Positions 39,823-60,777 of a DNA stretch of 64,000 nt are shown here, piece after piece. Position 1 is the stretch's first letter; every line of letters begins with the position of its first letter. The notes beneath the pieces are model-generated. The model saw only the letters and a list, made by a program, of their open reading frames with translations, searched no databases and was not told the DNA's origin. The stretch lies in the NCBI RefSeq assembly GCF_963677725.1, contig NZ_OY782507.1, positions 372,001-436,000 on the forward strand, given 5' to 3'. Made by a program: the position numbers and the translations under genes. The DNA comes from an uncultured Cohaesibacter sp. GTDB lineage: Bacteria > Pseudomonadota > Alphaproteobacteria > Rhizobiales > Cohaesibacteraceae.

Positions 39823-40049
39823 GGTCTGGTGAAATATCGATTAATTTGAATTAGTCTAACTAACAATGGCCGGTGGCAATCTTATGTCTTGTCACACCAG
39901 TGCGAATTGCGCCTAATAAGACAAGTTGCCATGTCATACACGCATATCCGAGCGCCGTAGACGATGGTTGTTGACGCGACAGCATCTTAAGCACCATCGG
40001 TGAGAGGCTGGATTTGTCGGGTAAACAGAACGCGAAAAGTGGGGTTCAT

Positions 40050-41930: not shown

Positions 41931-41962
41931 TTGCCGGACGCATCAGACCAAAAAGACACAAC

Positions 41963-41997
41963 AAAACCCCTTGTCCATGGCGAGGGGTTTTCTTTTA
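41963..41997 (+). terminator. Intrinsic terminator after phaC
   Basis: AAAACCCCT pairs with AGGGGTTTT, followed by a CTTTTA tract, 33 bp after the stop. Confidence 0.85.
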
Positions 41998-42170
41998 GTC
42001 GCACTGGGCTTCTCTATAATCCGACATCCTAGCGCCTTGTCATGAAACCGTCTTTCGTCTGTCAAGAGACTTTCATATTCGCGTCATGGCCGCTTCATGG
42101 TTCCTGCCTTAGATGCGCTCCTTATCGGCGTCCTGCGCCACCCCCGGATTCGATTATCGAGAGCTGTATC

Positions 42171-43142
42171 ATGCGGACCTTTGTTGCCTCTACCCTTCTT
42201 GCCGCCTTTGTTGCGACCCCTGCCCTGTCGAGCGAATTGGTGCTTTATACCAGTCAGCCAAACAAGGATGCCCAGCAGACCGTGGATGCCTTCATGGCGG
42301 CCAATCCAGACATCAAGGTCACCTGGGTGCGCGATGGCACCACCAAGGTGATGGCCAAGCTGAAAGCCGAAATCGCGGCGGACGACATACGCCCCGACGT
42401 GCTTTTGATTGCTGACACGGTTACCCTTGAAAGCCTGAAGCAGGAAGGTCGGTTGCAGCCATACCAATCAACCTTCGCCGAAGGCTTTGATAAAGCTCTT
42501 TATGATGCAGAAGGTTTCTATTATTCCACCAAGCTGATCACCAGCGGCATCGTTTACAATACCGGCGTCAAGACCAAACCGACAGGCTGGCAGGATCTGG
42601 CCAAAGCTGACATGAAGGGCATGATTGCCATGCCAAGCCCGCTTTATTCCGGTGCCGCTCTGATTCATCTCGCCACCCTGACCGGTAACGACCAGCTGGG
42701 CTGGGACTATTATGAAGCCTTGGCGAGAAATGATGCCCGTGCAAAGGGTGGCAATGGTGGCACCTTCAAGGCCGTTGCGTCGGGCGAAAAGCCCTATGGC
42801 GTGGTTGTGGACTTCCTTGCCATCCGCAACAAGGCCAAAGGCTCCCCGGTTGAGTTTGTCTTCCCAGAAGAAGGCGTTTCCTACGTCACAGAACCGGTTG
42901 CCATTCTCAAGACCGCAAAGAATGTCGAAGCCGCTCACAAGTTTGTCGACTTCCTGCTGTCCGACGCAGGCCAGCAGCTGGTTCTGGATCAAGGTTACAT
43001 TCCCGCCAAATCCGGCATGGCCGTGCCTGCCGGCTTTCCGGATCGTGAGCAAATCAAGCTGATGGCTTTTGATCCTGCCGCTGCCTTGAAGAATGCCGAT
43101 GAAAACAAGAAACGCTTCGCCGAGTTGTTCGGAGTGAAATAA
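42171..43142 (+). CDS. ABC transporter periplasmic binding protein (iron/phosphonate class)
   Basis: Solute-binding protein of 323 aa. A signal peptide (RTFVASTLLAAFVATPALS) leads to ELVLYTSQPNKDAQQTVDAF, typical of the FbpA-like family that also includes 2-aminoethylphosphonate-binding proteins. The family's paired Tyr ligands of Fe(III)-binding members are not clearly present, so the ligand is uncertain. The ATG at 42171 is used; the frame extends 43 codons upstream without homology. Its stop overlaps the permease ATG by one base (TAATG), so the operon is tight and lacks the hairpin seen in the other ABC operons here. Confidence 0.85.
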   Translation: MRTFVASTLLAAFVATPALSSELVLYTSQPNKDAQQTVDAFMAANPDIKVTWVRDGTTKVMAKLKAEIAADDIRPDVLLIADTVTLESLKQEGRLQPYQSTFAEGFDKALYDAEGFYYSTKLITSGIVYNTGVKTKPTGWQDLAKADMKGMIAMPSPLYSGAALIHLATLTGNDQLGWDYYEALARNDARAKGGNGGTFKAVASGEKPYGVVVDFLAIRNKAKGSPVEFVFPEEGVSYVTEPVAILKTAKNVEAAHKFVDFLLSDAGQQLVLDQGYIPAKSGMAVPAGFPDREQIKLMAFDPAAALKNADENKKRFAELFGVK

Positions 43143-44875
43143 TGCCCCCACGCCCCCTTGGCTATGGTGGTGCGCCTCACACATTCTCTGGCCGGTCTTT
43201 TGACCGGTCAGGCCTTTTTCTCTCCATTCTTGCCCCTATCATTGTCCTGTTGTGTCTCGTTCCGATCTTGCGTCTGATGCTTGAAAGCGTCTGGATCCAA
43301 GGAAGCTTTTCATCTGTCCATCTGGTTTCGGTCCTCACGGCGACCGACACATGGCATGCGACGTGGCATTCCGTTTCCATTTCGGCCCTTGGCACCTTGA
43401 TTGCGATGCTGCTCGGTAGCCTTTTTGCCTTTCTTGTGGCGCTGACAGATATAAGGGGCAAAGCCGCCCTTGTTTTCTGCTTCATGCTGCCGATGATGAT
43501 CCCGCCGCAAATCACCGCTCTGTCGTGGCTACAATTGTTCGGGCCGACTAGTGCCCTGTTGAAGATGATAGGCCTTGCGCCCCCGCTTGGCTCGCCACAG
43601 CCGCTCTATTCCGTTGAAGGCATCGCGCTGCTTCTTGGCATTCAGCATGGGTCTATCATTTTTCTGATCTTGCGGGCCGCCCTACGCCAATTGCCGCGCG
43701 AACAGGTAGAGGCCGCGCGGCTGGCTGGCGCTTCCAATTGGCAAGTCTGGCGCGATATTGTCGTGCCAGTCACCAGCCCTGCCCTGATTGCGGGCATCGC
43801 CATGACCTTTGTCACCGCGATTGGCAATTTCGGCATCCCGGCAATGCTCGGGATTCCTGCCAATATCCAGATGTTGCCAACACTGATCTATTCAAAATTG
43901 TCCTCCTTCGGTCCATCGGTCCTGTCGGAAGTGGCCATATTGGCGATCCTGATCGGTCTGATCGCCACCATTGGCGTGATGCTGCATCACTGGTTGGTCA
44001 GGGGCAAATCCTTCCGTTTGCATGGGGTGGTTGGGCGTCCTTTAGCTTTGTCTCTGGGGCGTTATCGCCTGCCGGTCGAGTTGGCACTGTGGGCGTTGCT
44101 TTGCCTCATCTTCGTTATTCCGATGCTGGCCCTGATTTCGGCCTCGATGGTGCCTGCCTTCGGCCTCACCTTGTCCGCCGAGACCGCAAGCCTTGAGGCA
44201 TATAGAGACGTTCTGTTTCGTCAAGGCGCAACCATCCGGGCCTTTGGCAACAGCTTTGCGCTGGCGACTGGAGCGGCTCTGGCCTTGTTTGCGCTCAGCG
44301 TGCCGCTTGCCTATGGCATGAATCGCGACAAGAACCGGTTGGCCTATCTGCTGAATATATTGGTCGAAGTGCCTTATGCCCTTCCGGGGATCGTGTTGGC
44401 CATATCCTGCATTTTGACGTTCCAGCGGATCCCTGTGATCCATGTCAGCCTCTATGGCACGTTGGCGATCATCTTCGTTGCCTATCTGGCGCGCTTCTTC
44501 GTCATCTCGCTGCGCCCAGTGCTCAGCTCTTTCCAACAAATGGATCCCAATCTGGAAGAAGCCGCACAGGCTTGTGGTGCGGCGCGGGCGCGCAGGATCA
44601 TCGATATCATGCTGCCAGCCGTCGCTCCATCCGCTGCGGCCGGTGGATTGCTGGTCTTTCTCACTGCCTTTAATGAGCTGACCGTTTCAGCGCTTTTGTG
44701 GTCATCGGGCAATGAGACGCTCGGCGTGGTCATTTTCAATCTTGATGACAGCGGCGACAGTGTCCTCGCCTCGGCCGTCGCCGTGCTGGTCGTCTGTGTG
44801 GTGCTTGTCTTGATGGCTCTGGTCGAGCTGCTCGGAAACCAATTGCCCAAAGGAGTTGTCCCATGGCGAAACTGA
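43142..44875 (+). CDS. Fused two-module ABC permease (FbpB/PhnU-like)
   Basis: Inner-membrane permease of 577 aa with two complete modules and about twelve helices. The EAA loops are QVEAARLAGASNWQVWRDI and NLEEAAQACGAARARRIIDI. It starts one base inside the stop of the binding protein gene and overlaps the ATPase gene by 13 bp. Length and duplicated architecture are those of iron(III) and 2-aminoethylphosphonate transporters. Confidence 0.88.
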   Translation: MPPRPLGYGGAPHTFSGRSFDRSGLFLSILAPIIVLLCLVPILRLMLESVWIQGSFSSVHLVSVLTATDTWHATWHSVSISALGTLIAMLLGSLFAFLVALTDIRGKAALVFCFMLPMMIPPQITALSWLQLFGPTSALLKMIGLAPPLGSPQPLYSVEGIALLLGIQHGSIIFLILRAALRQLPREQVEAARLAGASNWQVWRDIVVPVTSPALIAGIAMTFVTAIGNFGIPAMLGIPANIQMLPTLIYSKLSSFGPSVLSEVAILAILIGLIATIGVMLHHWLVRGKSFRLHGVVGRPLALSLGRYRLPVELALWALLCLIFVIPMLALISASMVPAFGLTLSAETASLEAYRDVLFRQGATIRAFGNSFALATGAALALFALSVPLAYGMNRDKNRLAYLLNILVEVPYALPGIVLAISCILTFQRIPVIHVSLYGTLAIIFVAYLARFFVISLRPVLSSFQQMDPNLEEAAQACGAARARRIIDIMLPAVAPSAAAGGLLVFLTAFNELTVSALLWSSGNETLGVVIFNLDDSGDSVLASAVAVLVVCVVLVLMALVELLGNQLPKGVVPWRN

Positions 44876-45930
44876 GGTTTGATCGTGTCAGCAAGCGCTT
44901 TGGCGAGGCAGACGTCCTCAAGTCGGTTTGCCTTGACATCATGGACGGAGAAATGATGGCTCTGCTCGGACCTTCAGGCTGCGGCAAGACCACCATGTTG
45001 CGGCTGGCGGCCGGTTTTGAACATCCCAGCGCGGGCGTGATTGCCAAGGATACCGAGATTCTTTCCAGCCAAAACCTTCATGTGGCACCCGAAGAGCGCA
45101 ATATGGGGATCGTCTTTCAGTCTTATGCGCTTTGGCCGCATATGTCGGTGGCTGACAATATTGCCTATCCGCTGAAAATTCGCCGGGTCTCCCAATCCGA
45201 GCTGGAAGAGACTTTATCGATGGCGCTTGATGTGGTGTCCCTTACGGACTTTGCCGATGCATCGCCATCCACCTTGTCAGGAGGCCAACGCCAGCGCGTG
45301 GCTTTGGCGCGGTGTCTGGTGATGAAACCCGATGCGGTGTTGCTTGACGAGCCTTTGGCCAATCTTGACGCCCATTTGCGTGAGGTGATGCAACAGAGCT
45401 TCATGGATTTCCATGCCCGAACCCAAAGCACGATGGTCTATGTCACCCATGATCAAGCCGAAGCGATGGCGATGGCTGACCGGATCGCGGTGATGTTTGA
45501 TGGCGAGATTGCGCAAGTGGCCAGACCGCAAGATCTCTATCAGCGTCCGGCAAGCGAGCAAGTGGCCCGGTTCATTGGCCAGAGCGCCATCCTGACCGGA
45601 CATTTGGATGGAGGTGATGCGCGCCAAAAGCGCGATGTCGTGGTCAATGGGCAGGTCTTTTCGGTGCGGCAAAGTGAAAAGGTTTCGGGCCTTGCCGATT
45701 CCCACGCCGTGCAAATCTGCGTTCGACCCGAGCATGTGCAGTTGCATCAGGACAAAGGCTTGGCTGCGCGCGTGACCGGGTGTTCCTATCTGGGTGAGCG
45801 CTACCGGCTGCAATTGCACATGCCAGACCAGACGCCGGTTGCGGCCTACGCCGACCAACCGGCAAAGCTTGGCGATGTTGTCCACTTCACCTTCAGTGAT
45901 GGTTGGGCCTTTGGTGAGGCGACTGGTTAG
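44863..45930 (+). CDS. ABC transporter ATP-binding protein (FbpC/PhnT-like)
   Basis: ATPase of 355 aa. Walker A GPSGCGKTT, signature [15 protein letters not shown], Walker B AVLLDEPLANLD and H-loop THDQAEAMAMAD are intact, and a C-terminal TOBE-like domain follows (HAVQICVRPEHVQLHQD). Its start lies inside the end of the permease gene. It completes a three-gene import system; no metabolic gene for its substrate is adjacent, so the substrate is open. Confidence 0.9.
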   Translation: MAKLRFDRVSKRFGEADVLKSVCLDIMDGEMMALLGPSGCGKTTMLRLAAGFEHPSAGVIAKDTEILSSQNLHVAPEERNMGIVFQSYALWPHMSVADNIAYPLKIRRVSQSELEETLSMALDVVSLTDFADASPSTLSGGQRQRVALARCLVMKPDAVLLDEPLANLDAHLREVMQQSFMDFHARTQSTMVYVTHDQAEAMAMADRIAVMFDGEIAQVARPQDLYQRPASEQVARFIGQSAILTGHLDGGDARQKRDVVVNGQVFSVRQSEKVSGLADSHAVQICVRPEHVQLHQDKGLAARVTGCSYLGERYRLQLHMPDQTPVAAYADQPAKLGDVVHFTFSDGWAFGEATG

Positions 45931-47149: not shown

Positions 47150-50100
47150 GTGAGGACTTACGGTTTGGAACAGTCTCAGCATTCTTATGGCCTTTATGAC
47201 CACAGCTTTGAGAAAAGCAGTTGCGGCGTCGGTTTCATGACCTACAAATCCGGGGTGCAGACCCATGATGTTCTGGTCAAGGGGCACGAAGCTCTTTGCA
47301 CAATTCCCCATCGTGGCGGCATGAGCTCGGAAGGCGTAGGCGATGGTGCGGGGGTGTGCGTTGACTTGTCCCTGTCCTTCTTCCGCAAGATCACCGGCAT
47401 GGGCAAGCTGGAGCTTGGCGAATTTGGTGTTGGCAACTTCTTCCTGCCAGTGGACAAACGATCCTGGGACGCGGCCGACAAACTGATCAAGGAAAGCCTT
47501 GAGAAGCATGATCTTCGGTTGATCCTCGTGCGCGACGCTCCGGTCAACAATGCTGTCATTCGCCCTGCTGCCGTAAAATTTATGCTGACGGTGCATCAGG
47601 TCGTCTTTATCAAACCCAATGACATGGATGCCAAGACCTTTGATCGTCGCATCCATGATGCCTTGATGTCGATTGAAGAGGTCGCTTATCTGGAGCCGAG
47701 CCTCAAGGGTCTTTATCCTCTGTCGATGTCGGCGCATACCCAGGTCTATAAAGGGCGTCTCAACTCAAACGAGATCATTCCCTATTTCATCGATCTGATG
47801 GATGATGACCACGAAATCCATTCCATGTTTTTCCATACCCGTTTCTCGACCAACACCGAGCCGCAGCCTTCAATGGCGCAGCCTTTCCGGTTGATGGCGC
47901 ATAACGGCGAATTGAACACCGACAAAAAGAACCGCCTGTCTGAGGCTGCCATTGCGCAGATGAAGAACCAGCAGATCTATTCGCCTCCGGGACAGTCGGA
48001 CTCCGCCCGTCTTGATCAGACTCTGGAACGGCGCCTGATCGAAGATGATCTGGACCTGATCACTGCCGTTGTGGCGATGATGCCTCCGGCATGGGAAAAT
48101 GACAGCCGCTTTAGCGACGATGTACGGGTGATGCTTGAATATTTCTCTCTCTATGAAGAGAAGAATGACGGTCCTGCTGCGCTGATCTTCGGCAACGGCA
48201 CGGTGATTGGTGCCCGTCTTGACCGCTTGGGACTGCGTCCTTTGCGCTCGGTCGAGACGGACGAATATCTGTGCGTGACGTCGGAAGCCGGTCAGATCGA
48301 TTTCGACCCGGACAGCATTATCCGTCGCGGGCGGATCGAAGCAGGCGGCATGCTTTATTTCGATCACGAAACGAAGAAGTCCTACACCTCTGCCGATGCC
48401 CTGGAAATGTTGGCCAAGAAGCGTGACTACCGGTCACTGCTGGAAAAGGCCCGCAACAATCTCGCTGATCTGCCGCAGAAGGAAGGCGAGACCGAGTTGT
48501 CTCCTGACTTCAATGATGTACAGCGCTCGGTTGCCTATGGGCTCAATCAGGAAAGCTACAAGTTCCTGCTTGATCCAATGATGCAGGCCGGGTCCGAGAA
48601 AATTTCGGCCATGGGCTATGGCGTCGCCATCAACGCGCTGACCAATCAGGAAGGCGGCATGGCGAAGTATTTCTCGCAGCGTTTTGCGCAGGTGACCAAC
48701 CCGCCGCTCGACAGCTTGCGGGAAGCCGATGGCATGACCTTGCGCGTGGCACTGGGGCCAAAACCCAATTTCAATCAGGAAAAAACCATGCAGCTGGTTG
48801 TCCAGAGCCCGGTTCTTTCGCCTGATGATTTGGCAACCATCCGCGCCCAGAGCGACGTTCTGGTCACCGAAATCGAGATGGTGTTCGAGATCGATCACAA
48901 AGCGGATATGAAAAAGGCGCAGGCCGATCTGATCGCAGCCGTTGATGGTGTTTGTGATCAGGTTGAGAAAGCCGCCCGCGAACGGGGTGGCATCATCATC
49001 CTGTCTGACGCGATGGTGGACCAGAAACTTGCCGCCATTCCACTGCCTTTGATGGTGTCGGCAGCCAACCAGCGGCTGATTGAGCAGGGCTTGCGGTTCC
49101 GCGTATCCATCATTGCCGAGAGTGGCCAGATTGCCTCTGCGCATCAGGTCGCAACGACCTTTGGTTTCGGGGCTTCTGCGCTGATGCCGATTGTCGTTGA
49201 AGCACGCGCCAAACTGTTTGCCAAAGGCGATGCAGCAGAAATGAAGGCAGGCATTGCCCGTTATATCAAGGCGGCCAACAAGTCGCTGATGAAAACCATG
49301 GGTAAAGTCGGCCTCTGTACTGCTGAAAGTTATATTGGCGGCGAATTTTTCGAGCCGAACTTCCTTGATACTGACGAGCCGATCCTCAAGCGCTACTTCC
49401 CGAATATGCGCAACACGGTTGGTGGCGTCGATTTTGCCGCGATCGCGCAAAGCGTTGTCGACTGGCACAAGCGTGCCTGTCAGGTAGAGAAGGAAGAAGA
49501 CATTCCTTTGTTGGGCCTGTTCAAGGAACGCTCAGAAGGCGCTGGTCATACCTATGGCACTGCCGCCGTGCGTGGCTTTGTGGAAATGACCCAAGAGCCG
49601 ATCCAAAGCAACAAGCCATCTGGGGATGCTGATGACATCGATGCGACGGACCTGCGCCTGCTGCAAGTCGCGCGTCTGCAAGATGCATATGGCAAAGGCT
49701 CTGAGGCCTACAAGAATACCAGCTTCAGTCGTCTGTTGCCCGAAGAGATTGACGCCTTCCAGATTACTGAAAGCTATCGGAAATTCTCGCTCGAGCTGTT
49801 CCGTGAGCGCGAGAAGCGTCCGGCGGCCTTGCGTGACGTCCTTGCCTTCCCGGCTGACATCACCTGGGCTGTGTCGGCTGACGAATTCGCGCAGGAGCTG
49901 TTCCAGCATGATCTGGTCGGCAACAACAATTTTGTTGTTCGCGGCATGACGGTGGATTCGAATGGCGAAGGTCACTTTGACATCACCCTTGGAGAAAATG
50001 CCTCCCATGACCGGCTGGTCGCGCTGACGGTTGCGCTCAAAGGCAAATTCGGCAAGGAACTGGAAAGTCTTGAGACCGAAGACACGGTCATTCATATCAA

Positions 50101-52645
50101 GGCGTCCGGTCAGGCAAACTTCTATTTCGATCATGTAAAGGCGGCCAATCCGAAGCTGCCGCTGGATGAGATCCAGCCTGCGCATGAGGTGACGACGAAA
50201 CTGGCCTCCGGCGCCATGTCCCATGGTGCGCTCGTCGCTCCAGCCCACGAGGCAGTGGCGCATGGCACCAACATGGCCGGTGGCTTCTCCAACTCCGGTG
50301 AAGGCGGTGAGCATTCCTCCCGCTATGGCACCATTCGCTCCAGCCGCATCAAGCAGCTGGCATCTGGTCGCTTTGGTGTATGGACCGGTTATCTGGCCGA
50401 CCCGACACTGGAAGAGTTGGAAATCAAAATCGCGCAGGGTGCAAAACCCGGTGAAGGTGGCCAGTTGCCGGGCAAAAAGGTGACGGTTGAAATCGCCGCT
50501 GCCCGTGGTGGCACGCCCGGTGTGGAGCTGATTTCTCCTCCTCCGCATCACGACACCTATTCGATCGAGGATTTGGCACAGCTGATCCATGATGCCAAGG
50601 CAGCTCGGGTGCGGGTTATAGTCAAGCTCGTGTCGTCCGAAGGTATCGGCACGATTGCAGTTGGCGTTGCCAAGGCCGGTGCGGACGTGATCAACATTGC
50701 CGGCAACACGGGTGGTACAGGTGCTGCGGCTGTAACGTCGTTGAAAAATACCGGTCGTGCTGCCGAGATCGGCCTTGCAGAAGTGCATCAGGCGCTGTGC
50801 GTCAATGGCTTGCGCGAGAAGGTCATCCTTCGGTGTTCGAACGCCCACCAGACCGCGTCTGACGTTGTCAAATCGGCTCTGCTGGGTGGTGACAGCTTCG
50901 AGTTTGGCACCACCGCGTTGATGATGCTGAAATGCGTCATGGCCAAGAACTGCAACGTCAAGTGCCCGGCTGGTCTGACAACCAACTCGGAAGTGTTTGA
51001 TGGTGATCCACGGGCGCTGGCTCAGTATCTGCTCAACATCGCTCACGAAGTGCGCGAAATCCTTGCTGGCCTTGGTTTCAGGAGCCTTAAGGAAGCGCGG
51101 GGCCGTGCGGACTATCTGCATTTGGTCAAGCATCCGAGCGCCATCGGTCAGATGGATCTGCGCCAAATGCTGCAAGTGGTCCATGAGGTCAAAGTCAAAG
51201 AGCCGGTCTATCTGGAAGCCAATTTCAGTGTCGATGATCAGCTCTTGAAAGACTTCAAGAACCAGGCCGTTCAGCGCCATCAAAGCCGCATCAAGCTGGT
51301 GGTCGAAAAGAAACTCGACAACCGCAACAAGACCGTTGGTGGTCAGTTGGCCATCGATATCGAGCGGATGTTGCAGCATGAATTGTCAGAAAAGCATCTG
51401 GCCTCGATGCCCATCGTCTATACCGATGACCGTGGCCGCAACCTGATCAAACCGGAACGGCTGGAAATCCATACCCACGGTTCCGCGGGTCAGTCCTATG
51501 CTGCCTTCTGTAACTCCGGCATGGTGATGCATCATACCGGCACGTGTAACGACGGTGTTGGCAAAGGTGCCTCCGGCGGCAACATCGCCATCCATTCTCC
51601 GGGTGGCGGGGAAGCAGAAAACTTCCTGATTGGCAACTTCGCCCTGTTCGGTGCATCCGGCTCGGCCCTGTTTGTCGAAGGTGGTGCTGGCGACCGCTTC
51701 GGTGTGCGTAACTCTGGTGCAACAGCCGTGGTTGAGGGCGTTGGCGATTTCTGCGGCGAATACATGACCAACGGCGCCATCTTGAATCTTGGTGGTTTCG
51801 GCAAGGGTTTCTGCAACGGCATGTCCGGTGGTGTGGCTTATCAGTATGATCCATATGATCAGCTGGAATCGCTCTATAGCCATGACTCGGTCAAGCTGCA
51901 CCGTCTCGACTCGGGCAGTGACCGCGCCAAGCTGCACCAGATTGCAGTGAAAACCCTGCTTGAACGGCACGTAAAATTCACCAACTCGGCCAAGGCCCGC
52001 TTCATTCTGGAGAATTTCGAAACCGAGCTCGTACACTTCAAGTTTGCGACCCCTCTGGCGCTCGAAACCTACCAGAATTATGAAGCGATCCTGAAAGCCA
52101 ACACGGCAAAAGAGCTGACCGAAGAGCTCGCACAGGCTCTGGTTTCCTACCAGATCCGCAAGTTCAAGGAAGCTTATCGTGACGGCAAACTGGTTGCCAA
52201 CGGCATGGTGCCTGAGCAAGGTCAGACCGACACCAAGCTGATGTATGAGCTGCTGAACAATTACACCGTCATTAATATGGCGCAACAGATCGTCAAAGGC
52301 CGCTACAAGGGGCAGGATATCGATGAAGCGACGCTCAATTCTGGCGTTCGCAAATTGATCCTCACCGAGGACTTTACCTTGATGACCAAGATGGCAGCGA
52401 TTGCCCGTCAGGCTCTGACCGGCTATTCGGAGACGGAAATCGCCGTAATGGTGTCCGACAAGCGAATGAAAGACTATAAGACGGCCCTGTCAAACCGGAA
52501 TGTCCGGCTGATGGATTCCATTGGAACCTATGGCTGGATCCTGATGCAGGATCGACTGAACCGTGAAGCCATGGGCACATTGCCTGACTTTGAAGCCCTG
52601 TTTGCTTCAACGTCCAGCATGGAGCTGATCAAGCAGGTGTCTTAG
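47150..52645 (+). CDS. gltB: Glutamate synthase large subunit, long variant
   Basis: Glutamate synthase large subunit-like protein of 1831 aa, some 300 residues longer than the usual alpha subunit. It converts glutamine and 2-oxoglutarate to two glutamates. A propeptide of 24 residues precedes the catalytic Cys25 in SSCGVGFM. Next come the amidotransferase domain (about 25-430), a central domain, the FMN barrel (about 1000-1350, with GEGGQLPGKKV and SPPPHHDTYSIEDL) and the GXGXG helix domain. Iron-sulfur Cys1262, 1268 and 1272 have spacing x5 and x3 rather than the common x5 and x4. About 170 extra residues follow the normal end. The GTG at 47150 is poor in Shine-Dalgarno; TTG at 47165 has GAGG nine bases before it and is a good alternative. 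No gltD follows; a diflavin reductase does. Confidence 0.9.
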   Translation: MRTYGLEQSQHSYGLYDHSFEKSSCGVGFMTYKSGVQTHDVLVKGHEALCTIPHRGGMSSEGVGDGAGVCVDLSLSFFRKITGMGKLELGEFGVGNFFLPVDKRSWDAADKLIKESLEKHDLRLILVRDAPVNNAVIRPAAVKFMLTVHQVVFIKPNDMDAKTFDRRIHDALMSIEEVAYLEPSLKGLYPLSMSAHTQVYKGRLNSNEIIPYFIDLMDDDHEIHSMFFHTRFSTNTEPQPSMAQPFRLMAHNGELNTDKKNRLSEAAIAQMKNQQIYSPPGQSDSARLDQTLERRLIEDDLDLITAVVAMMPPAWENDSRFSDDVRVMLEYFSLYEEKNDGPAALIFGNGTVIGARLDRLGLRPLRSVETDEYLCVTSEAGQIDFDPDSIIRRGRIEAGGMLYFDHETKKSYTSADALEMLAKKRDYRSLLEKARNNLADLPQKEGETELSPDFNDVQRSVAYGLNQESYKFLLDPMMQAGSEKISAMGYGVAINALTNQEGGMAKYFSQRFAQVTNPPLDSLREADGMTLRVALGPKPNFNQEKTMQLVVQSPVLSPDDLATIRAQSDVLVTEIEMVFEIDHKADMKKAQADLIAAVDGVCDQVEKAARERGGIIILSDAMVDQKLAAIPLPLMVSAANQRLIEQGLRFRVSIIAESGQIASAHQVATTFGFGASALMPIVVEARAKLFAKGDAAEMKAGIARYIKAANKSLMKTMGKVGLCTAESYIGGEFFEPNFLDTDEPILKRYFPNMRNTVGGVDFAAIAQSVVDWHKRACQVEKEEDIPLLGLFKERSEGAGHTYGTAAVRGFVEMTQEPIQSNKPSGDADDIDATDLRLLQVARLQDAYGKGSEAYKNTSFSRLLPEEIDAFQITESYRKFSLELFREREKRPAALRDVLAFPADITWAVSADEFAQELFQHDLVGNNNFVVRGMTVDSNGEGHFDITLGENASHDRLVALTVALKGKFGKELESLETEDTVIHIKASGQANFYFDHVKAANPKLPLDEIQPAHEVTTKLASGAMSHGALVAPAHEAVAHGTNMAGGFSNSGEGGEHSSRYGTIRSSRIKQLASGRFGVWTGYLADPTLEELEIKIAQGAKPGEGGQLPGKKVTVEIAAARGGTPGVELISPPPHHDTYSIEDLAQLIHDAKAARVRVIVKLVSSEGIGTIAVGVAKAGADVINIAGNTGGTGAAAVTSLKNTGRAAEIGLAEVHQALCVNGLREKVILRCSNAHQTASDVVKSALLGGDSFEFGTTALMMLKCVMAKNCNVKCPAGLTTNSEVFDGDPRALAQYLLNIAHEVREILAGLGFRSLKEARGRADYLHLVKHPSAIGQMDLRQMLQVVHEVKVKEPVYLEANFSVDDQLLKDFKNQAVQRHQSRIKLVVEKKLDNRNKTVGGQLAIDIERMLQHELSEKHLASMPIVYTDDRGRNLIKPERLEIHTHGSAGQSYAAFCNSGMVMHHTGTCNDGVGKGASGGNIAIHSPGGGEAENFLIGNFALFGASGSALFVEGGAGDRFGVRNSGATAVVEGVGDFCGEYMTNGAILNLGGFGKGFCNGMSGGVAYQYDPYDQLESLYSHDSVKLHRLDSGSDRAKLHQIAVKTLLERHVKFTNSAKARFILENFETELVHFKFATPLALETYQNYEAILKANTAKELTEELAQALVSYQIRKFKEAYRDGKLVANGMVPEQGQTDTKLMYELLNNYTVINMAQQIVKGRYKGQDIDEATLNSGVRKLILTEDFTLMTKMAAIARQALTGYSETEIAVMVSDKRMKDYKTALSNRNVRLMDSIGTYGWILMQDRLNREAMGTLPDFEALFASTSSMELIKQVS

Positions 52646-52654
52646 GACACCTGC
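52633..52654 (+). other. Hairpin holding the gltB stop codon in its loop
   Basis: GCAGGTGTC (52633-52641) and its exact complement (52646-52654) form a 9-bp stem around TTAG, whose last three bases are the UAG stop of gltB. No T-tract follows, so this may shape the mRNA between gltB and the reductase gene rather than terminate it. Confidence 0.6.
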
Positions 52655-52697
52655 CGTTCCGCCCTCCTCGCCCATTCCAACGACCGGATCAAATATC

Positions 52698-54449
52698 ATG
52701 AATCTCCCGTTTCTTCCTGATGATGCCCCCTTCTCCAGCGATCAGAAATCATGGCTCGCTGGTTTCTATGCCGGTTTGCACTCCCAGATGCTGCAAGGTC
52801 AGAAAGCCAATGAACAAGAATCAACCGCCAGCCTGACCGCCCATATTTTGTTTGGCACGCAAACAGGCAACTCGGAATCGGTTGCTGAAGATCTTGGTGC
52901 AGCGATGCGCTCCAACGGCATCAATGCAAGCGTTGCCGCTCTTGATGATATCGAGGTCGATGATCTGACCAAGATGGATTATGTCTTTGTCGTCACCTCC
53001 ACCTATGGTGAAGGCGAGATGCCAGACAATGCGGAACTGTTCTGGGAGTCATTCAAAGCGACCACGGCACCCCGTCTGGAGCATATGCAATTTGCTGTGC
53101 TGGCGCTCGGCGACACCGCTTATGACGAATTCTGTGAGGCTGGCAAACAGTTCGATCTGCGCTTTGAACAACTTGGTGCCAAGCGCCTTGTTCCCCGCGC
53201 TGATTGTGACGTCGATTTCGAAGAACCGGCTGAAAGCTGGACCAATGAAGTGCTGTCCGAGCTGGCCAAGCAAAAGCCCTCCGGTGCTGACGAAGTTGTT
53301 GCATCAGCGGCTGCGGCCAAGAAACCGGGCAAATCCAAATGGACACGCAAAAATCCGTTCGACGCTCCGGTCACAGTCAATCGTCTGCTTTCGGGCGAAG
53401 GATCTGCCAAGGAAATTCGCCATTACGAATTCGATCTGTCCAATGACGGACCGAAATATGTGGCTGGCGACGCTCTGAATATCATTCCAACCAACGATCC
53501 GGCCCTGGTGGCTGATTGGCTTGCCTATCTGGACGTGAAAGGTGACACGCCTGTTGCAGGCAAGGACATGCCGCTGGAAGAATTGCTGTTCAGCCAGTTG
53601 GAGATTTCTACCCCGCACACTGACTTTGTCAGAGCCGTTTCAGAGCGCGCCGACGATGATCATCTGGCGCATATTGTTGGCCACGGGGACAAGGAGGCCA
53701 TGGAGGCCTATCTCTGGTCCAAAGACTCGCTTGATCTTTTGCGTCTGCATCCGGAGGTCAAATTCTCGGTTGACGAGCTGGTTTCGATGTTCAAACCATT
53801 GCAGCATCGTGCCTATTCGATCTCCTCAAGCTCGAAAAAATTCACCGACTCCGTCCATCTGACGGTGGCATCCGTGCGCTATGAGAGCCATGGTCGCTCC
53901 CATGGCGGCGTGGCGTCCTGCTTCCTTGCCGACCGGGTTGGTGACAGCCCTTCCAAGGTGTTCATTTCGCCAAACAAGGCCTTTCGTGTGCCGGAAAGTG
54001 GCGATGTACCAATGATCATGGTCGGCCCGGGCACCGGGATCGCGCCATTCCGCGCCTTCCTGCAAGAACGTGAAGCGCTGGGTGCCGGTGGCATGAACTG
54101 GCTGTTCTTTGGTGACCAGCATGAGAAATGCGACTTCATCTACAAGGACGAGCTGGCGGAAATGCAGGCGTCGGGCGTCCTCAACCGTCTGGATCTTGCC
54201 TTCTCGCGCGATCAGAAAGAGAAAATCTATGTTCAGACGCGGATGAAGGAAAATGGCAAGGATCTTTATGCCGCGCTTGAAGAAGGTGGACATTTCTATG
54301 TCTGCGGTGACGCAACGCGCATGGCAAAAGACGTTGACCGTGCCTTGCATGAAGTCATTGCAGAACATGGCGGCCTCGACCTTGATCAGTCTGTTGAATA
54401 TGTCAATCGACTGAAAAAAGAAAAACGCTATGTGCGCGATGTCTATTGA
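52698..54449 (+). CDS. CysJ-like NADPH diflavin reductase
   Basis: A 583-aa flavoprotein of the sulfite reductase alpha/cytochrome P450 reductase family. FMN domain at about 48-190 (FGTQTGNSE, STYGEGEMPDNA, LGDTAYDEF), a linker, the FAD domain (HRAYSISSSSK, GVASCFLA), and the NADPH domain (GPGTGIAPFRAFLQER, FFGDQHEKCDF) ending in KRYVRDVY, the usual aromatic C-terminus. It transfers electrons from NADPH by FAD and FMN to an acceptor. There is no sulfite reductase beta subunit in the window. The gene begins 52 bp after gltB, so it may supply electrons to that enzyme, which is an inference. A strong terminator follows. Confidence 0.92.
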   Translation: MNLPFLPDDAPFSSDQKSWLAGFYAGLHSQMLQGQKANEQESTASLTAHILFGTQTGNSESVAEDLGAAMRSNGINASVAALDDIEVDDLTKMDYVFVVTSTYGEGEMPDNAELFWESFKATTAPRLEHMQFAVLALGDTAYDEFCEAGKQFDLRFEQLGAKRLVPRADCDVDFEEPAESWTNEVLSELAKQKPSGADEVVASAAAAKKPGKSKWTRKNPFDAPVTVNRLLSGEGSAKEIRHYEFDLSNDGPKYVAGDALNIIPTNDPALVADWLAYLDVKGDTPVAGKDMPLEELLFSQLEISTPHTDFVRAVSERADDDHLAHIVGHGDKEAMEAYLWSKDSLDLLRLHPEVKFSVDELVSMFKPLQHRAYSISSSSKKFTDSVHLTVASVRYESHGRSHGGVASCFLADRVGDSPSKVFISPNKAFRVPESGDVPMIMVGPGTGIAPFRAFLQEREALGAGGMNWLFFGDQHEKCDFIYKDELAEMQASGVLNRLDLAFSRDQKEKIYVQTRMKENGKDLYAALEEGGHFYVCGDATRMAKDVDRALHEVIAEHGGLDLDQSVEYVNRLKKEKRYVRDVY

Positions 54450-55104: not shown

Positions 55105-57219
55105 CTATTGAGCCGCTTCCGTCTCAGTGTTGTCCAGACCCGAAGGTGGATTGATGTTCCGCCCGTTGCGTTCCATCATGTCAGAGATCTTCTGGAACCC
55201 CGGTGCAGTATCGAGATCCTTGAGGCTCAATTGGTATTTGCGACGCCAGTTTGGGTGCTCATCGATGGTGCCGGGCAGATTTTGCGCTTCTTCCTGACCA
55301 AGCACGTCATCCATTTGCACCGAGATCATCGCGACCTTGGATGCGGCCAGTTTGCCATGGACGATCTCGAACAGATGTTCGAAGCTGTCATCCATATTGC
55401 CCCCTTCACCATTCATGGCGACAAGCGCGGAAACATCTTTGCGGCGATGCTCCTTGGCTTCGTGAGAGACACGGCTTTCATCGCCGCTGATGCGATCACG
55501 CCAAACAATGTCTTTGCCACTGATATAGCCTTTGAGAGTCGGCGTGTCGTGTGTACTGAAGCAGGCAAGACTATATTGGCGCAAGTCATTTGGATGCTTG
55601 AATACACCATCGGGCCATTTCTCATATTGCAGCACCGAATAGCCATAAACGCCGCGAGCCTGTACCTTTTCGCGGAAGCCTTCAGGCACAAGGCCGAGAT
55701 CTTCACCGATGATCGACGTCCCGGATGCATTGGCTTCTATCGAAAGCATCGCAAGGAAGACATCCATTGGCTGGGAAACATAGGCGCCGGGGCTGCCATC
55801 TTCCGGGATCCAGAAGCTACGATTGAGACCAAGCACATGATCGATGCGCAGAATGCCAGCATGGCGCATGGCCGACTGATAGATCTTGCGCAAGCTGCTA
55901 TATTTGTCTTTCGCCAGTTTCTTGGGCGCATAGGTCATCAGGCCCCAATTCTGGCCATCTGGACCCAGCTGATCGGGTGGCGCACCAAGCGAAACACCCA
56001 AGGCAACACTGTCGGCTTCACACCAGCTTTCGGCACCGCCATGACGCGCACCCACGGCCAGATCGAGATAAAGCCCCATCGAGTCGCCATTGGCTGATGC
56101 ACGGCGCTGGGCACCGGCCAGCTGACTTTCGGCGACCCATTGCAGCCAGGCATGGAAGTCAATCCGGGCAGCCAGACGCTCGCGGTGCTGATCAAGCGCT
56201 GCCGGATCGCGGTCACGGACGGCGGATGGCCAACGTCGCCAGTCCTGCCCGTATAGTTCGGCCAGCGCTTCATAAAGAGCAAAGCGCTCCAAATAGCTTC
56301 CACTTGCCGCTCGGTAATCCTCAAACTGATTTCTGCTCTCACCGACTGCATGGGCAACAAACAGAGTATAAAGATCGCGCAAAGCGGCATTGTGGCAAAT
56401 GCGGTGATCGCGATAGCGCACTCTTTCGGATCGTCGCAACTCGTCCCATTGGGCTTCAACGGCCTGGAAAAGTGCCCTTGCCTGAGGGATCTGATCAAAG
56501 CCGGGAACGAAATCAGCGGCTATATGTTGGGTATTGTAAAAACCGCGATGGCTTGGTGAATAGGGGCTGATGGCATCAAGATCGTTAAAACCCAGCGTAT
56601 GGACAGGATTGATGCCAACATAGCTGCCGCCAAGCGACAAGGTATATTCAGCCAGACGGGCGAGATCTTCATAATCGCCAAGGCCGGAATTGCGCTCGCT
56701 GCGCAGGCCGTAAAGCGGAGCATTGAGACCCCAGATGTGAAACTTGCCGGTCAGGCTTTCAATAGCGGGCGCACGGTGTGGAGCGCAAATGATGGTGACA
56801 ATCTCACAGCGGCCGCCAACTTCGCACACCAGATCATGAATGCCGGCAGGCAAGGCAGGCAGCGAAATATGCGTATCCGCAACACCCGACAAACTGTCCG
56901 GGTGAATCTGCGCGCGGTCTTCTTCGCTGATTTGATCATCCAGCTTAATATGCCATTTGGCACCAAGGCCGAAATTGCACTCATAACCATAGCCCGCACC
57001 AGTGACCAGCTCATGGGGGAACCAGCGATCTTCCTCAACGGCCACATAATAGGCAATCGCCTCATCGATCATGGCGTCATTGTCGAGTTCCAAACCGTTC
57101 GCGCGCAACAGCGCAAGCTGGGTATCGATGGACGTGTTTATGAGGTTTCCGTCAAAGTCATTGTAACTGTTGTGAATTCCAAAATGTCTGGCAAGAAGAT
57201 TCAGTTTGTCGACATTCAT
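55105..57219 (-). CDS. malQ: 4-alpha-glucanotransferase (amylomaltase)
   Basis: GH77 enzyme of 704 aa that transfers maltodextrin segments. Family segments are HIWGLNAPLYGLRSERNSG, the SPYSPSHRGFYNTQHIAAD region, IDHVLGLNRSFWIPED, and IGEDLGLVPEGFREKVQARG, with the acid/base Glu and downstream DTPTLKGY. Cytoplasmic. It overlaps glgX by four bases and is the last gene of the minus-strand glycogen operon. It would rework short glucans left after branching and debranching. Confidence 0.94.
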   Translation of the reverse strand: MNVDKLNLLARHFGIHNSYNDFDGNLINTSIDTQLALLRANGLELDNDAMIDEAIAYYVAVEEDRWFPHELVTGAGYGYECNFGLGAKWHIKLDDQISEEDRAQIHPDSLSGVADTHISLPALPAGIHDLVCEVGGRCEIVTIICAPHRAPAIESLTGKFHIWGLNAPLYGLRSERNSGLGDYEDLARLAEYTLSLGGSYVGINPVHTLGFNDLDAISPYSPSHRGFYNTQHIAADFVPGFDQIPQARALFQAVEAQWDELRRSERVRYRDHRICHNAALRDLYTLFVAHAVGESRNQFEDYRAASGSYLERFALYEALAELYGQDWRRWPSAVRDRDPAALDQHRERLAARIDFHAWLQWVAESQLAGAQRRASANGDSMGLYLDLAVGARHGGAESWCEADSVALGVSLGAPPDQLGPDGQNWGLMTYAPKKLAKDKYSSLRKIYQSAMRHAGILRIDHVLGLNRSFWIPEDGSPGAYVSQPMDVFLAMLSIEANASGTSIIGEDLGLVPEGFREKVQARGVYGYSVLQYEKWPDGVFKHPNDLRQYSLACFSTHDTPTLKGYISGKDIVWRDRISGDESRVSHEAKEHRRKDVSALVAMNGEGGNMDDSFEHLFEIVHGKLAASKVAMISVQMDDVLGQEEAQNLPGTIDEHPNWRRKYQLSLKDLDTAPGFQKISDMMERNGRNINPPSGLDNTETEAAQ

Positions 57220-59345
57220 GACTGGTCATTATCCACTTCGAGTATCAGCGCAACCACAGACGAGCCGGACACCTCGGTTCTTTCGTCGCGAGGCTCGCGT
57301 TTTGGCGATTGGACCTGCAGGGCCGTATCCACGGCTCTCACCCAATGGCACCCTTCAGGATGCGGTGGCAATACAACGCTCGCAGCCACATTGCTGCGAT
57401 TGAAAATCAGAAATACAACATCATTGTCGGATTCATAGGACGGTGCTTCAGCGCAACAGCGAAGCGTCAAGCAGAAGCTGGATAGACCGGGATCACGCCA
57501 TTGCAGCGGGAAGCCGGAAAAATCGGTCCATTGCACATCTGGCAGATCATCTTCCGGTCGCTTGGCCCCGTGCAGAAAACGGTCCTGACGCAGCACCTTG
57601 TGATCGCGGCGAAACGCCGAGAGATAATACACAAAGGCCTTGAGGCCCTCGTCTTCCTTGTCCCAACTGACCCAGCCAATTTCATTGTCCTGACAATAGG
57701 CATTGTTGTTGCCAAACTGACTATTGCCGATTTCATCGCCTGCCAACAGCATGGGGCTGCCCTGAGAAAAGAAGAGCGTTGCAATGAAGTTGCGCTGCCG
57801 ACGATGACGGCGGGCATTGATGACAGGATCGTCGGTCTCACCCTCAAAGCCGCAATTGTCGCTATAATTGGCGCCATGGCCGTCCATGTTATTCTCACCA
57901 TTGGCCAGATTATGCCGATTGTTGTATCGCACGATGTCGGCAATGGTGAAGCCATCATGGGCGGAAATGAAATTGACAGACGACCAGGCGCGACGCCCTG
58001 CCCGGTCGAATTTGTCCGCCGAGCCCAGAAGCCGCGAGGCAAGGTCCGGCGTGGTCTGTGGATCGCCTTTCCAGTAACGGCGGGTGGTGTCACGGTAGCT
58101 GTCGTTCCATTCGGAAAATTCCGGCGGGAAGCCACCCAGCCGATAGCCGCCGGGACCAATATCCCAAGGTTCGGCAATCAGCTTGACGGTTTGCAGCACC
58201 GGATCCTGACGGATCGCATCGAGAAATCCGCCATAGAGATCAAAGCCATGTTCCTCGCGACATATGGTCGTGGCTAGATCGAAGCGGAAGCCGTCAATGC
58301 CCATGCATTGGACCCAGTAGCGCAAGGAATCAAGCACCAGACGCAGCACATAGGGATGCGCCACATTGACCGTGTTGCCGGTGCCGGTTTCATTGACGTA
58401 ATAGCGCGGCTGGCCAGCGATCAGGCGATAATAGCTTGCATTGTCAAGGCCGCGGAAAGACAGGGTCGGGCCATTCTGGTTGCCTTCGGCGGTATGGTTA
58501 TAGACCACATCGAGATAAACCTTGATGCCCGCTTCCTTGAGGCGCTGAACCATCGAACGGAAACCGAGCAGGCCGTTGGGGCCAAAATACCGTGGCTCAA
58601 GGGCGAAGAAACCGGCGGTGTTGTAACCCCAATAATTTTTCAGGCCACGATTGATCAGAAATTCATCGTCAATGAAGGAGTGGACTGGCATCAACTCAAG
58701 GGCCGAAACGTTCATCGACAAAAGATGGTCGATCATCGCGTCACTGCACAGCGCCTCATAGGTGCCGCGCAGTTCTTCCGGCACGCCGGGATGCAGTTTG
58801 GTCAGTCCCTTTACGTGGGCTTCATAGATCAGGTCACGACCATCAATCTTGGGCACGTCGGTGCTCAGGAAGTCATTCAGAGCCGGATCGGAAACGACGG
58901 ATTTGGGAACGCAGCTGGCACTGTCAGCGGCGCCAAAGGTCAAATCGCCACCAGACGCCCCCTTCTGGTAGCCAAACAATGTGGCTGAAGGGGTCCATTT
59001 GCCGTGCAGCTCCCGTGTGTAGGGGTCCATCAGCAGCTTGTTGGAATTGAAACGATGGCCCTGCTCCGGCGCATAGATGCCATGGGCCCGATAGCCATAC
59101 AGGGTCCCCGGCTTTAAGCCTTCAACATAACCATGCCACACCGGACCGGTGCGTTCAGGCAATGTGATGCGATCAATTTCCCGCCGCCCATCGTCGGAGA
59201 AAAGGCACAGGTCAATCTGGCTCGCATTGGCGGAGAAGACAGCAAAATTCGTGCCCTCTCCATCAAATTGAGCACCCAAGCTATGGGATTTTCCGCCAGA
59301 AATGCGGTATCGGGTGGAACGGTTCGTACGAATGGGACTACTCAT
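57216..59345 (-). CDS. glgX: Glycogen debranching enzyme
   Basis: GH13 enzyme of 709 aa splitting alpha-1,6 branches. An N-terminal CBM48-like domain (about 20-120) precedes the barrel. Catalytic residues appear in GFRFDLATTI (nucleophile Asp), LIAEPWDIG (Glu) and FISAHDGF (third Asp). It overlaps glgA by eight bases and malQ by four, so the three are translated together. Confidence 0.95.
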   Translation of the reverse strand: MSSPIRTNRSTRYRISGGKSHSLGAQFDGEGTNFAVFSANASQIDLCLFSDDGRREIDRITLPERTGPVWHGYVEGLKPGTLYGYRAHGIYAPEQGHRFNSNKLLMDPYTRELHGKWTPSATLFGYQKGASGGDLTFGAADSASCVPKSVVSDPALNDFLSTDVPKIDGRDLIYEAHVKGLTKLHPGVPEELRGTYEALCSDAMIDHLLSMNVSALELMPVHSFIDDEFLINRGLKNYWGYNTAGFFALEPRYFGPNGLLGFRSMVQRLKEAGIKVYLDVVYNHTAEGNQNGPTLSFRGLDNASYYRLIAGQPRYYVNETGTGNTVNVAHPYVLRLVLDSLRYWVQCMGIDGFRFDLATTICREEHGFDLYGGFLDAIRQDPVLQTVKLIAEPWDIGPGGYRLGGFPPEFSEWNDSYRDTTRRYWKGDPQTTPDLASRLLGSADKFDRAGRRAWSSVNFISAHDGFTIADIVRYNNRHNLANGENNMDGHGANYSDNCGFEGETDDPVINARRHRRQRNFIATLFFSQGSPMLLAGDEIGNSQFGNNNAYCQDNEIGWVSWDKEDEGLKAFVYYLSAFRRDHKVLRQDRFLHGAKRPEDDLPDVQWTDFSGFPLQWRDPGLSSFCLTLRCCAEAPSYESDNDVVFLIFNRSNVAASVVLPPHPEGCHWVRAVDTALQVQSPKREPRDERTEVSGSSVVALILEVDNDQS

Positions 59346-60777
59346 GCATCAGGGATGAAAACAACTTTTCGTAAATCGAAGCGGATTGATCCCAGCCAAC
59401 TTCCTGCATCATCGCGCGTCGCATCATGTTTTTCCATTGTTTCGAATTGGAAAAGAGATCACAAGTCTTATTGATAGCCTTGTCCAGGCTGTCTACGGTA
59501 ATCGGAGAGAACTGCACGCCAGTTGCACATTTTGTAGCCAAAGCTGCTTCATTGGCGTCGATCACCGTGTCGGCAAGTCCACCTGTGCGGGCGACAACCG
59601 GGATTGTGCCATAGCGCAGACCATAAAGCTGGGTAAGACCACAGGGTTCAAAGCGCGACGGAATGAGAATGGCATCCGAGCCGCCTTGCAGCATGTGCGA
59701 GAGATCCTCGTTATAGCCGATCTCCACACCGATGGTGCCCGCGAACCGGTCCGCCATTTCCTTGAAGCCATTTTCAAGCCAAGGGTCTCCAGAGCCAAGG
59801 ACAGCCAGTCGCGCGCCGCGCCGGATGATGGTCGGGATGGTGTCGAGCAGCAGATCGAGGCCCTTTTGCGATGTCAGGCGAGAAATCACACAGAAGAGCG
59901 GAGCATCGGGATTGCTGCGCAAGCCGAATTTCTCTTCGATCCAAGCCTTGTTGTCCGCCCGGCGCTTGAGAGAACGCGGGTTGAAGGTCTTGATCAGGGC
60001 CGAGTCGGTTTCGGGGTTCCAGGTGTCGGTATCAATGCCATTGAGGATGCCCGAAAGATGAGACCGTCGAGACTGCAACAAGCCTTCAAGGCCCATGCCG
60101 AATTCGTGGGTCAACAATTCGGTTGCATAGGTAGGACTGACCGTGGTGATCCTGTCAGCCAAGGCCAAACCGCCCTTGAGGAATCCGACCTTGTGCCAAT
60201 ATTCATAGCCATCGATGTTGAACAGGCCTTCGGTCAGGCCAAGCGGGCCGCGCACGGAAGCGTCGAACAGGCCCTGGAAGGCGATGTTGTGAATGGTCAT
60301 CACGACCGGAGGTGCCTCACGGCCCGACTGGTTGAGATAAACCGGCACCAGCCCGGCCTGCCAATCATGGGCATTGACCACATCGGGCTTCCAGCCACCA
60401 ATGCCATCCAGACCGATCTTGGCACCGATCAGAGACAGGGCACCAAAGCGGATGGCATTGTCTTCCCAATCTTCCCCATTGGGATTGAGATAGATGGAAC
60501 CGGGACGATCAAACAAATGGGCTGCCTCCAAAAGCAGCATGTTCAAGCCCTTGGCACGAACAGCATGGACACGGGCGGGGCCGCCGAACAGATCTTCCAG
60601 TTCGAGCAGCACTTCTCCCTTGTCCAGCCATTTGTCAAAAGCCGGATAAGCAGGCACCAGAATGCGAACATCGTGCCCCAAAGCTTCAAGCGCTTTGGGA
60701 ACCGATCCGATCACATCGGCCAAACCGCCCGTCTTGACGAAGGGCGCACATTCGGAGGCAACAAAGAGTACGTTCAT
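59338..60777 (-). CDS. glgA: Glycogen synthase (ADP-glucose)
   Basis: GT5 enzyme of 479 aa. The N-terminal ADP-glucose loop is KTGGLADVIGSVPKAL (residues 16-31), and the C-terminal Rossmann domain has PSRFEPCGLTQLYGLRYGTI and RTGGLADTV. It extends alpha-1,4 glucan chains from ADP-glucose. Its ATG abuts the stop of glgC directly (TAA then ATG), so translation is coupled. Confidence 0.96.
   Translation of the reverse strand: MNVLFVASECAPFVKTGGLADVIGSVPKALEALGHDVRILVPAYPAFDKWLDKGEVLLELEDLFGGPARVHAVRAKGLNMLLLEAAHLFDRPGSIYLNPNGEDWEDNAIRFGALSLIGAKIGLDGIGGWKPDVVNAHDWQAGLVPVYLNQSGREAPPVVMTIHNIAFQGLFDASVRGPLGLTEGLFNIDGYEYWHKVGFLKGGLALADRITTVSPTYATELLTHEFGMGLEGLLQSRRSHLSGILNGIDTDTWNPETDSALIKTFNPRSLKRRADNKAWIEEKFGLRSNPDAPLFCVISRLTSQKGLDLLLDTIPTIIRRGARLAVLGSGDPWLENGFKEMADRFAGTIGVEIGYNEDLSHMLQGGSDAILIPSRFEPCGLTQLYGLRYGTIPVVARTGGLADTVIDANEAALATKCATGVQFSPITVDSLDKAINKTCDLFSNSKQWKNMMRRAMMQEVGWDQSASIYEKLFSSLMHE

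Follow-up and report, generated by a model that had tools for sequence, protein, structure and literature searches.

Glutamate synthase (GOGAT) is a main entry of nitrogen into biomass, and the accessible part of a review (PMC8097209) names NADPH-, NADH- and ferredoxin-dependent forms only, the last of which is reduced by free ferredoxin according to the same text. The nearest precedent for the system treated here is the putative F420-dependent glutamate synthase of methanogens, a context-based proposal which, in the accessible part of its source, also has an alternative electron module, one shared with sulfite reductases (PMC3448663), and which differs in using an F420H2 dehydrogenase unit and no diflavin reductase. 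Here we describe a stretch of 64,000 nucleotides (the window) from an uncultured Cohaesibacter sp. (contig NZ_OY782507.1, positions 372,001 to 436,000), in which a gene for an unusually long GltB is followed by one for an intact diflavin reductase (52698-54449, +; hereafter DFR). We consider it highly probable that the pair forms one NADPH-dependent glutamate synthase of a distinct type, in which DFR replaces GltD. A preliminary description of the locus had proposed such a type, and gene linkage, exclusion of GltD, separate clades and conserved residues now support it; its idea that the reductase could replace both GltD and ferredoxin stands for GltD, which the evidence covers, and goes too far in saying "both".

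The GltBD enzymes of A. brasilense and E. coli share with the window GltB the same domain order, catalytic cysteine, FMN barrel, three cluster cysteines and GXGXG helix, whereas the window system has a diflavin partner and no GltD, four added GltB blocks (54, 85, 20 and 164 residues) and a C-x5-C-x3-C cluster motif. The ferredoxin-dependent GOGAT of Synechocystis (1LLW/1OFD) is likewise a GltB-type protein without GltD; its profile match (924 bits) is lower than that of the NADPH-type chain of B. subtilis (1041 bits) and stops before the C-terminal extension of the long GltB. We know of no dedicated reductase gene for ferredoxin-dependent GOGAT. CysJ (6EFV) is the same kind of FMN-FAD-NADPH reductase as DFR and its best PDB match (E=3.9e-127), yet DFR has GltB instead of CysI as its neighbor and forms its own clade. 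No published description of the gltB-DFR pair was found by title or start of abstract, in a search outside which subscription journals mostly lie, and the pair goes unmentioned in the accessible parts of PMC9409073, PMC2848241, PMC6386902, PMC8822346, PMC5863699 and PMC2975660.

The gene pair and its linkage

The window holds an open reading frame (ORF) of 1831 aa at 47150-52645 (+) and one of 583 aa at 52698-54449 (+), with 52 bases between them, just as the preliminary description had placed its long GltB and CysJ-like reductase. All domains are over their Pfam cut-offs: GATase_2, Glu_syn_central, Glu_synthase and GXGXG, in this order, in the long GltB, and Flavodoxin_1, FAD_binding_1 and NAD_binding_1 in the downstream protein, which bears out the complete FMN, FAD and NADPH set ascribed to it. 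The size of 1831 aa holds as the ORF length from 47150, while the start given there is the less likely one: GltB probably begins at the TTG at 47165, giving 1826 aa, a start preferred because the GTG at 47150 sits in a conserved Shine-Dalgarno (SD)-like element and because some genus loci (L023-L026 among them) list no start there. This TTG is kept in all 18 Cohaesibacter loci by upstream sequence comparison. Residue numbers of GltB follow the 1831-aa reading (start at 47150) throughout. The features are as follows:

47150-47156 (+): SD-like GTGAGGA element, holding the GTG taken earlier as the start (upstream sequences of the 18 genus loci)
47165-52645 (+): long GltB, probable TTG start, about 1826 aa; 1831 aa from 47150 (ORF, Pfam)
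47222-47224 (+): Cys25 codon; once the propeptide is cleaved off, Cys25 is the predicted N-terminal catalytic residue of the glutaminase domain
49610-49771 (+): insertion block 1, residues 821-874, not in the canonical GltBs compared (alignment)
49886-50140 (+): insertion block 2, residues 913-997, ahead of the FMN barrel and predicted to fold as a small alpha/beta domain
50933-50965 (+): iron-sulfur motif C-x5-C-x3-C, residues 1262-1272 (motif comparison)
52151-52642 (+): C-terminal extension, residues 1668-1831, predicted all-helical (alignment, model)
52698-54449 (+): DFR, CysJ-like, 583 aa, proposed NADPH-to-GltB electron donor
52845-53240 (+): DFR flavodoxin (FMN) domain, residues 50-181 (PF00258)
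53343-53921 (+): DFR FAD-binding domain, residues 216-408 (PF00667)
54018-54338 (+): DFR NAD(P)-binding domain, residues 441-547 (PF00175; alignment to CysJ 6efv)

The linkage of the two genes is beyond chance. Among 101 genomes compared, source genome included, long GltB occurs in 23 (18/18 in the genus, 1/2 others of the family and 4 others of the order), and DFR adjoins long gltB in all 23 loci. Scanning named genomes with a segment characteristic of long GltB yielded 489 related stretches, and in the best 80 of these DFR lies directly downstream of long gltB 77 times; in the remaining three (L114, L137, L158) the contig stops inside gltB. Nine of the 80 loci (L099-L103, L106, L107, L124, L165) repeat genomes of the 23, and the two sets are therefore not independent. 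The spacing is 0-158 bases in 76/77 loci, and 861 in L138, whose gltB frame is broken. Broken frames of gltB in L138 (4179-8717) and of DFR in L167 (13612-15121) represent assembly error or decay, and both pairs were used for the linkage count only. By record name, the pair is found in Alpha-, Beta- and Gammaproteobacteria, in Actinomycetota and in two metagenome-assembled genomes (MAGs) labeled Verrucomicrobia.

The same picture came from a search of 398 Pseudomonadota genomes with the C-terminal extension alone, so that loci were not chosen by neighbor: six genomes (source genome included) gave a full match, two of them with divergent GltBs (54% and 50% identical along most of the protein), and DFR follows in 6/6. 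The other matches listed stop by profile position 85 of 249, a tail common to canonical GltB. Of 217 plasmid records in which GltB is matched, 9 have the long form over 98-100% of its length, and DFR adjoins it in all four of the plasmid records read; no relative was confirmed in a scan of viral contigs. Beyond the gltB-DFR pair the neighborhood is not conserved. The preliminary description had named a lack of conserved linkage in relatives as telling against its proposal; the linkage is kept. Coincidental neighborhood was rejected as an explanation, the linkage being kept across distant lineages.

GltB and DFR distances also correlate (r=0.92 over 49 pairs, with 0/1000 permutations as high), a value based on the 49 of 77 pairs left after length filters and to which shared species history contributes. 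The Verrucomicrobia-labeled MAG DFRs (L125, L164) nest in the Rhodobacteraceae branch (100/98, 96/83), and Rhodococcus and Mycobacterium DFRs stand apart in the DFR/CysJ tree, the Mycobacterium placement being weakly supported. This suggests transfer between lineages, though the MAG cases may be binning errors.

Long GltB compared with canonical GltB

Six canonical GltBs measure 1522-1630 residues from the first possible start, vs. 1831 for the long form, which in alignment has added blocks at 821-874, 913-997, 1408-1427 and 1668-1831. The cluster motif is C-x5-C-x3-C in 23/23 long GltBs and not the C-x5-C-x4-C of canonical GltB, whose x4 spacing is present in 32/32 canonical motifs found (loci L032-L098, 32 of them with the motif). 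Each of the three cluster cysteines is nonetheless kept in 45/45 long GltBs, and about four residues are absent just after the motif. No Cys-rich column was seen in blocks 821-874, 913-997 or 1668-1831.

The active-site residues are retained. C25, R231, N252, G253 and D284 are invariant in 9 aligned long GltBs, and Cys25 corresponds in alignment to residue 1 of chain 1ea0 from A. brasilense; we take these five to have their usual glutaminase roles, and assume usual roles also for the tunnel and synthase residues, which are likewise kept. K1099, Q1105 and R1119, presumably the residues with the 2-oxoglutarate role, are invariant in 45/45. In a tree, 16 long and 6 canonical GltBs fall on opposite sides of a branch with 100/100 support, the branches being long and the joining point of E. 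coli unsure. The window GltB scores under the NCBIfam PRK11750 equivalog cut-off (1032.7 vs. 1047 bits), whereas a canonical relative reaches 1749.9. The 913-997 block is modeled as a small alpha/beta domain (block means of the predicted local distance difference test, pLDDT, 81-94) and residues 1586-1831 alone as a helical domain (pLDDT 88), with which a PDB fold search returned nothing better than E=0.22.

Electron supply and alternative explanations

From these comparisons we infer the formation of a complex, its electron path, product and cluster type. Long GltB would hydrolyse glutamine, channel ammonia to 2-oxoglutarate and reduce the imine with FMN like an ordinary GOGAT. Electrons would pass from NADPH to FAD to FMN inside DFR, then one at a time from the DFR FMN to the iron-sulfur cluster of GltB and on to the GltB FMN, with DFR in place of GltD and its FAD and two [4Fe-4S] clusters. 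The chemistry downstream of the GltB cluster should stay unchanged, and DFR probably docks on the added domains and the remodeled cluster loop. Within the DFR NAD(P)-binding domain, SRDQKEKIYVQ matches CysJ in the alignment to 6efv, and we take it to confer NADPH specificity.

The source genome is a single contig of 4.63 Mb that is 99.56% complete. It has one full-length GltB, the other PF01645 matches being weak (27.9 bits elsewhere, 20.4 bits within the same gene), and no GltD (TIGR01317) over cut-off, the best match reaching 257.9 bits vs. 447.7; hence the gltBD pair that would have weakened the proposal is absent from the genome. None of its three matches to Fer4_20, the GltD N-terminal domain, falls inside the window, in line with the earlier remark that the window lacks gltD. 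Long GltB is the only full-length GOGAT seen in Cohaesibacter. PF00208 matches in the source genome are limited to a 357-aa ORF, which we take to be Leu-dehydrogenase-like, and a 1639-aa ORF, presumably of the size of a large NAD-dependent glutamate dehydrogenase; with the sole full-length GltB and only these two ORFs, long GltB is therefore likely the main route to glutamate at low ammonium. A strong PF00208 match, not found in the source genome, is present in G003, G008, G010, G012, G014 and two Aquisalinus genomes.

Across the 101 genomes, TIGR01317 is not over cut-off in 22 of the 23 with long GltB (source included), while G094 has both pairs; GltD is over cut-off in 72 of the 78 genomes without long GltB. 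The six exceptions are G072 and G084, genomes of 1.3-1.4 Mb, together with G045 (67% complete), G028 (84% complete), and G033 and G051, which have partial GltD matches. G018, of the same family as the source, has gltBD and lacks long GltB. Stand-alone ORFs of about 450-680 aa that carry a strong Glu_synthase domain were observed in G069, G131, G011, G009, G079, G110, G111, G019 and G094.

Several points weigh against the pair being a distinct GOGAT. The support comes from comparative genomics. Two loops of the FMN barrel depart from canonical GltB, one having AGNTGGTGAAAV in place of SGYDGGTGASPL and the other reading CSNAHQTASD in the window where canonical GltB has VDGGLKTGRD, so that cofactor or substrate details may differ. 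The model of residues 737-1831, which matches GltB structures, is moderate (mean pLDDT 73, parts of the barrel <50). DFR passes the cut-off of PRK06214, sulfite reductase subunit alpha (449.5 vs. 432 bits), and might therefore serve another acceptor as well. Finally, in a GltD check on 40 of the 80 named loci, several of them from MAGs, 31/40 genomes with the pair retain a GltD-type protein (25 over cut-off and 6 more with a nearly full-length match of 395.8-416.5 bits), and the pair therefore need not be the main GOGAT there.

Among the alternatives, the one that survives best, albeit as an improbable one, is that long GltB is fed by ferredoxin or Nfn, with DFR in a side role. Ferredoxin-dependent GOGATs do exist (PMC8097209, accessible part), and 14/18 genus members have a GltD/Nfn-type match of about 250-265 bits. 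In the source genome the best GltD-like protein is TIGR01316-type (567 bits, over cut-off) and adjoins a PRK06222-type protein (388 bits, over cut-off), neighbors that we take to be an Nfn-like pair; they lie at about 2069641-2072104 of the source contig (L004), and NCBIfam calls the TIGR01316-type protein "glutamate synthase." However, six long-GltB relatives (G005, which is only 64% complete, G009, G011, G017, G079 and G085) show nothing strong of this type (best E 2.9e-10 or weaker), on which ground Nfn was rejected as the GltB partner, and DFR accompanies long gltB at every locus where its place is visible.

Slightly less probable still is that DFR is an ordinary CysJ serving a distant sulfite reductase, placed by coincidence or by shared nitrogen/sulfur regulation. 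Annotation leans that way (the plasmid DFRs are called sulfite reductase subunit/flavoprotein alpha in 3/4 records and cysJ in 1/4), as do the PRK06214 match and the one gene with NIR_SIR matches in the source genome, about 310 kb from DFR and next to an ORF that resembles cysH by eye. This siroheme reductase, which we checked as a possible CysI in need of this reductase, scores best as ferredoxin-nitrite reductase/NirA (220 bits, under cut-off) and far under the CysI cut-off (104.5 vs. 756.55 bits). DFR itself is under the TIGR01931 cysJ equivalog cut-off (612 vs. 668.15 bits) and that of PRK10953, and its gene stands beside gltB rather than CysI in those 77/80 loci spread over distant lineages. 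DFR and CysI are also decoupled: a homolog of the source siroheme reductase occurs at >650 bits in 70/101 genomes, among them G018, G021, G024 and G025 without a DFR match, while the genus members G002, G010 and G013 have DFR and no match to that homolog.

Of the other CysJ-type places read, 14/14 adjoin a CysI homolog (15 loci, L066 and L186 being the same place, chosen from a list of matches whose further weaker or partial entries were left out); at four of them (L066/L186, L067, L068, L185) the main match is to the FAD/NADPH part only. Seven genomes (G001, G008, G012, G014, G016, G085, G094) have both gltB-DFR and CysJ-CysI pairs, and in the tree 27 DFRs and 14 CysJ-type rows are split by one branch (support 100/99). 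At nineteen positions 56 DFRs share a nearly invariant residue that is rare among the 14 CysJ-type rows, a contrast inflated by four of these rows aligning poorly in the flavodoxin domain; several of the nineteen (Y103, M108, W116, T140, A148) lie near the FMN loops. A plain CysJ was thus rejected on linkage, separate clade and decoupling from CysI. At L177:3269-4846, about 8.7 kb from the gltB end, lies a further diflavin reductase that shares 47% identity with the window DFR.

The weakest alternative, that the two genes encode a glutamine-dependent reductive aminase for an oxo acid other than 2-oxoglutarate, draws on the unusual FMN-barrel loops and the GltD-type protein also kept in 31/40 genomes and is very improbable given the single full-length GltB and two PF00208 ORFs of the source genome and the invariance of K1099, Q1105 and R1119.

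Distribution, iron economy and significance

The finding is wider than the preliminary description claimed. Of the nine named genomes outside the 31, eight lack a canonical full-length GltB: Pseudovibrio stylochi, P. hongkongensis, Rhodobacteraceae NBU2976, Aquisalinus luteolus, A. flavus, an HTCC2207-labeled MAG, Porticoccaceae UBA4026 and Verrucomicrobia MAG-85, all of unstated completeness. The ninth, G140 (L125), was rejected as a long-only genome because one of its frames, of 1516 aa, is a GltB of canonical type. GltD is present in an uncultured Pseudovibrio (L144). We assume the long-only lineages (Cohaesibacter, two Pseudovibrio, Aquisalinus, SAR92-like) to be marine.

With about 3 Fe per protomer vs. 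11, the pair would save eight, if its cluster is [3Fe-4S] as usual. It is tempting to speculate, at somewhat less than an even chance in our estimate, that the pair is a separate, iron-sparing class of GOGAT, a two-gene module moved between lineages in which the flavin-only DFR stands in for the iron-rich GltD, induced by iron limitation in organisms that keep gltBD and acting as sole GOGAT in several lineages; the induction would involve IdeR boxes in Mycobacterium, Nocardia and Tsukamurella and perhaps RirA boxes in Rhizobiaceae. The accessible part of a study of Caulobacter crescentus reports that gltB and gltD drop in low iron, and terms this an iron-sparing response (PMC3751524). Because regulator boxes precede gltB, the pair may be the low-iron version of GOGAT where gltBD is also held.

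IdeR-like boxes occur upstream of gltB in 4/10 actinobacterial loci, differing from the 19-bp consensus (accessible part of PMC8464063) by 3, 3, 4 and 5 mismatches, and 0/3000 dinucleotide shuffles reached 5 mismatches; L148 and L157 (3 mismatches each) are near relatives, so that the independent cases number about three. Within 201 kb of actinobacterial loci there are three sites with <=4 mismatches, every one of them upstream of gltB; weaker sites (6 and 7 mismatches) occur in two further mycobacterial loci. The IRO pattern TGA-N9-TCA was found in 6/12 loci belonging to a single Rhizobiaceae group, where shuffling gives an expectation of 0.8, and in 4/9 of a mixed group (0.6 expected), counts to be read knowing that the loci are related and that the match may partly be a -35 box; it occurs in 0/12 Rhodobacteraceae and 0/6 SAR92-like loci. 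Matches in 10/12 Agrobacterium loci were set aside as support, since they are common to close relatives and lie at a distance of about 340-360 bases ahead of the Cys codon. Scans for Fur and Irr boxes, with search patterns that we assume to represent their consensus, gave no clear excess except one site common to nine Agrobacterium loci. A HemS/ChuX-like gene directly follows DFR in 15/80 loci and 2/4 plasmids, some members being under the HemS cut-off, and a siderophore receptor lies near the pair on a K. vulgare plasmid. The HemS/ChuX-like genes are located at L161:15189-16178 and in 14 further loci, and on the plasmids at L227:13164-14081 and L229:13415-14227.

Other observations pull away from a link to iron. 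An IdeR-like box is present in 0/4 Rhodococcus loci, and a site with 5 mismatches also turns up in one of the 67 loci from outside the actinobacteria. The IRO pattern is found in 2/8 Cohaesibacter/Pseudovibrio loci vs. 0.7 expected, and no upstream IRO box was found in the window. In a neighbor scan covering 56 of 96 genes upstream and 67 of 118 downstream (109 and 105 families altogether), iron-uptake families are absent among the 25 commonest families shown for the upstream genes, and the 25 shown on the downstream side include just two such families, HemS (4 members) and ChuX_HutX (2).

Elsewhere around the pair, a uroporphyrinogen decarboxylase-type gene follows DFR in seven SAR92/Porticoccaceae/Cellvibrionales loci (L134, L139, L162, L166, L168, L172, L176; one scanned against Pfam). 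In the window, 40014-45930 holds a class I polyhydroxyalkanoate synthase gene and then those of a solute-binding protein, a permease and an ATPase that resemble a putative 2-aminoethylphosphonate transporter, under its cut-offs; the glycogen genes malQ, glgX and glgA lie beyond the pair at 55105-60777 (-), and an Rfam scan of the window gave no family at threshold.

If the pair is indeed a glutamate synthase in which DFR replaces GltD, a GOGAT that draws its electrons from a CysJ-type reductase would drive the reaction in a new way, and the annotation of DFR as "sulfite reductase subunit alpha" or "cysJ" (4/4 plasmid records read) would stand corrected. It would also tie nitrogen assimilation to iron economy. 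G200 (L223, 2174-13471, -), where canonical gltB, gltD, long gltB and DFR stand in one row, offers a natural experiment with both glutamate synthases side by side.

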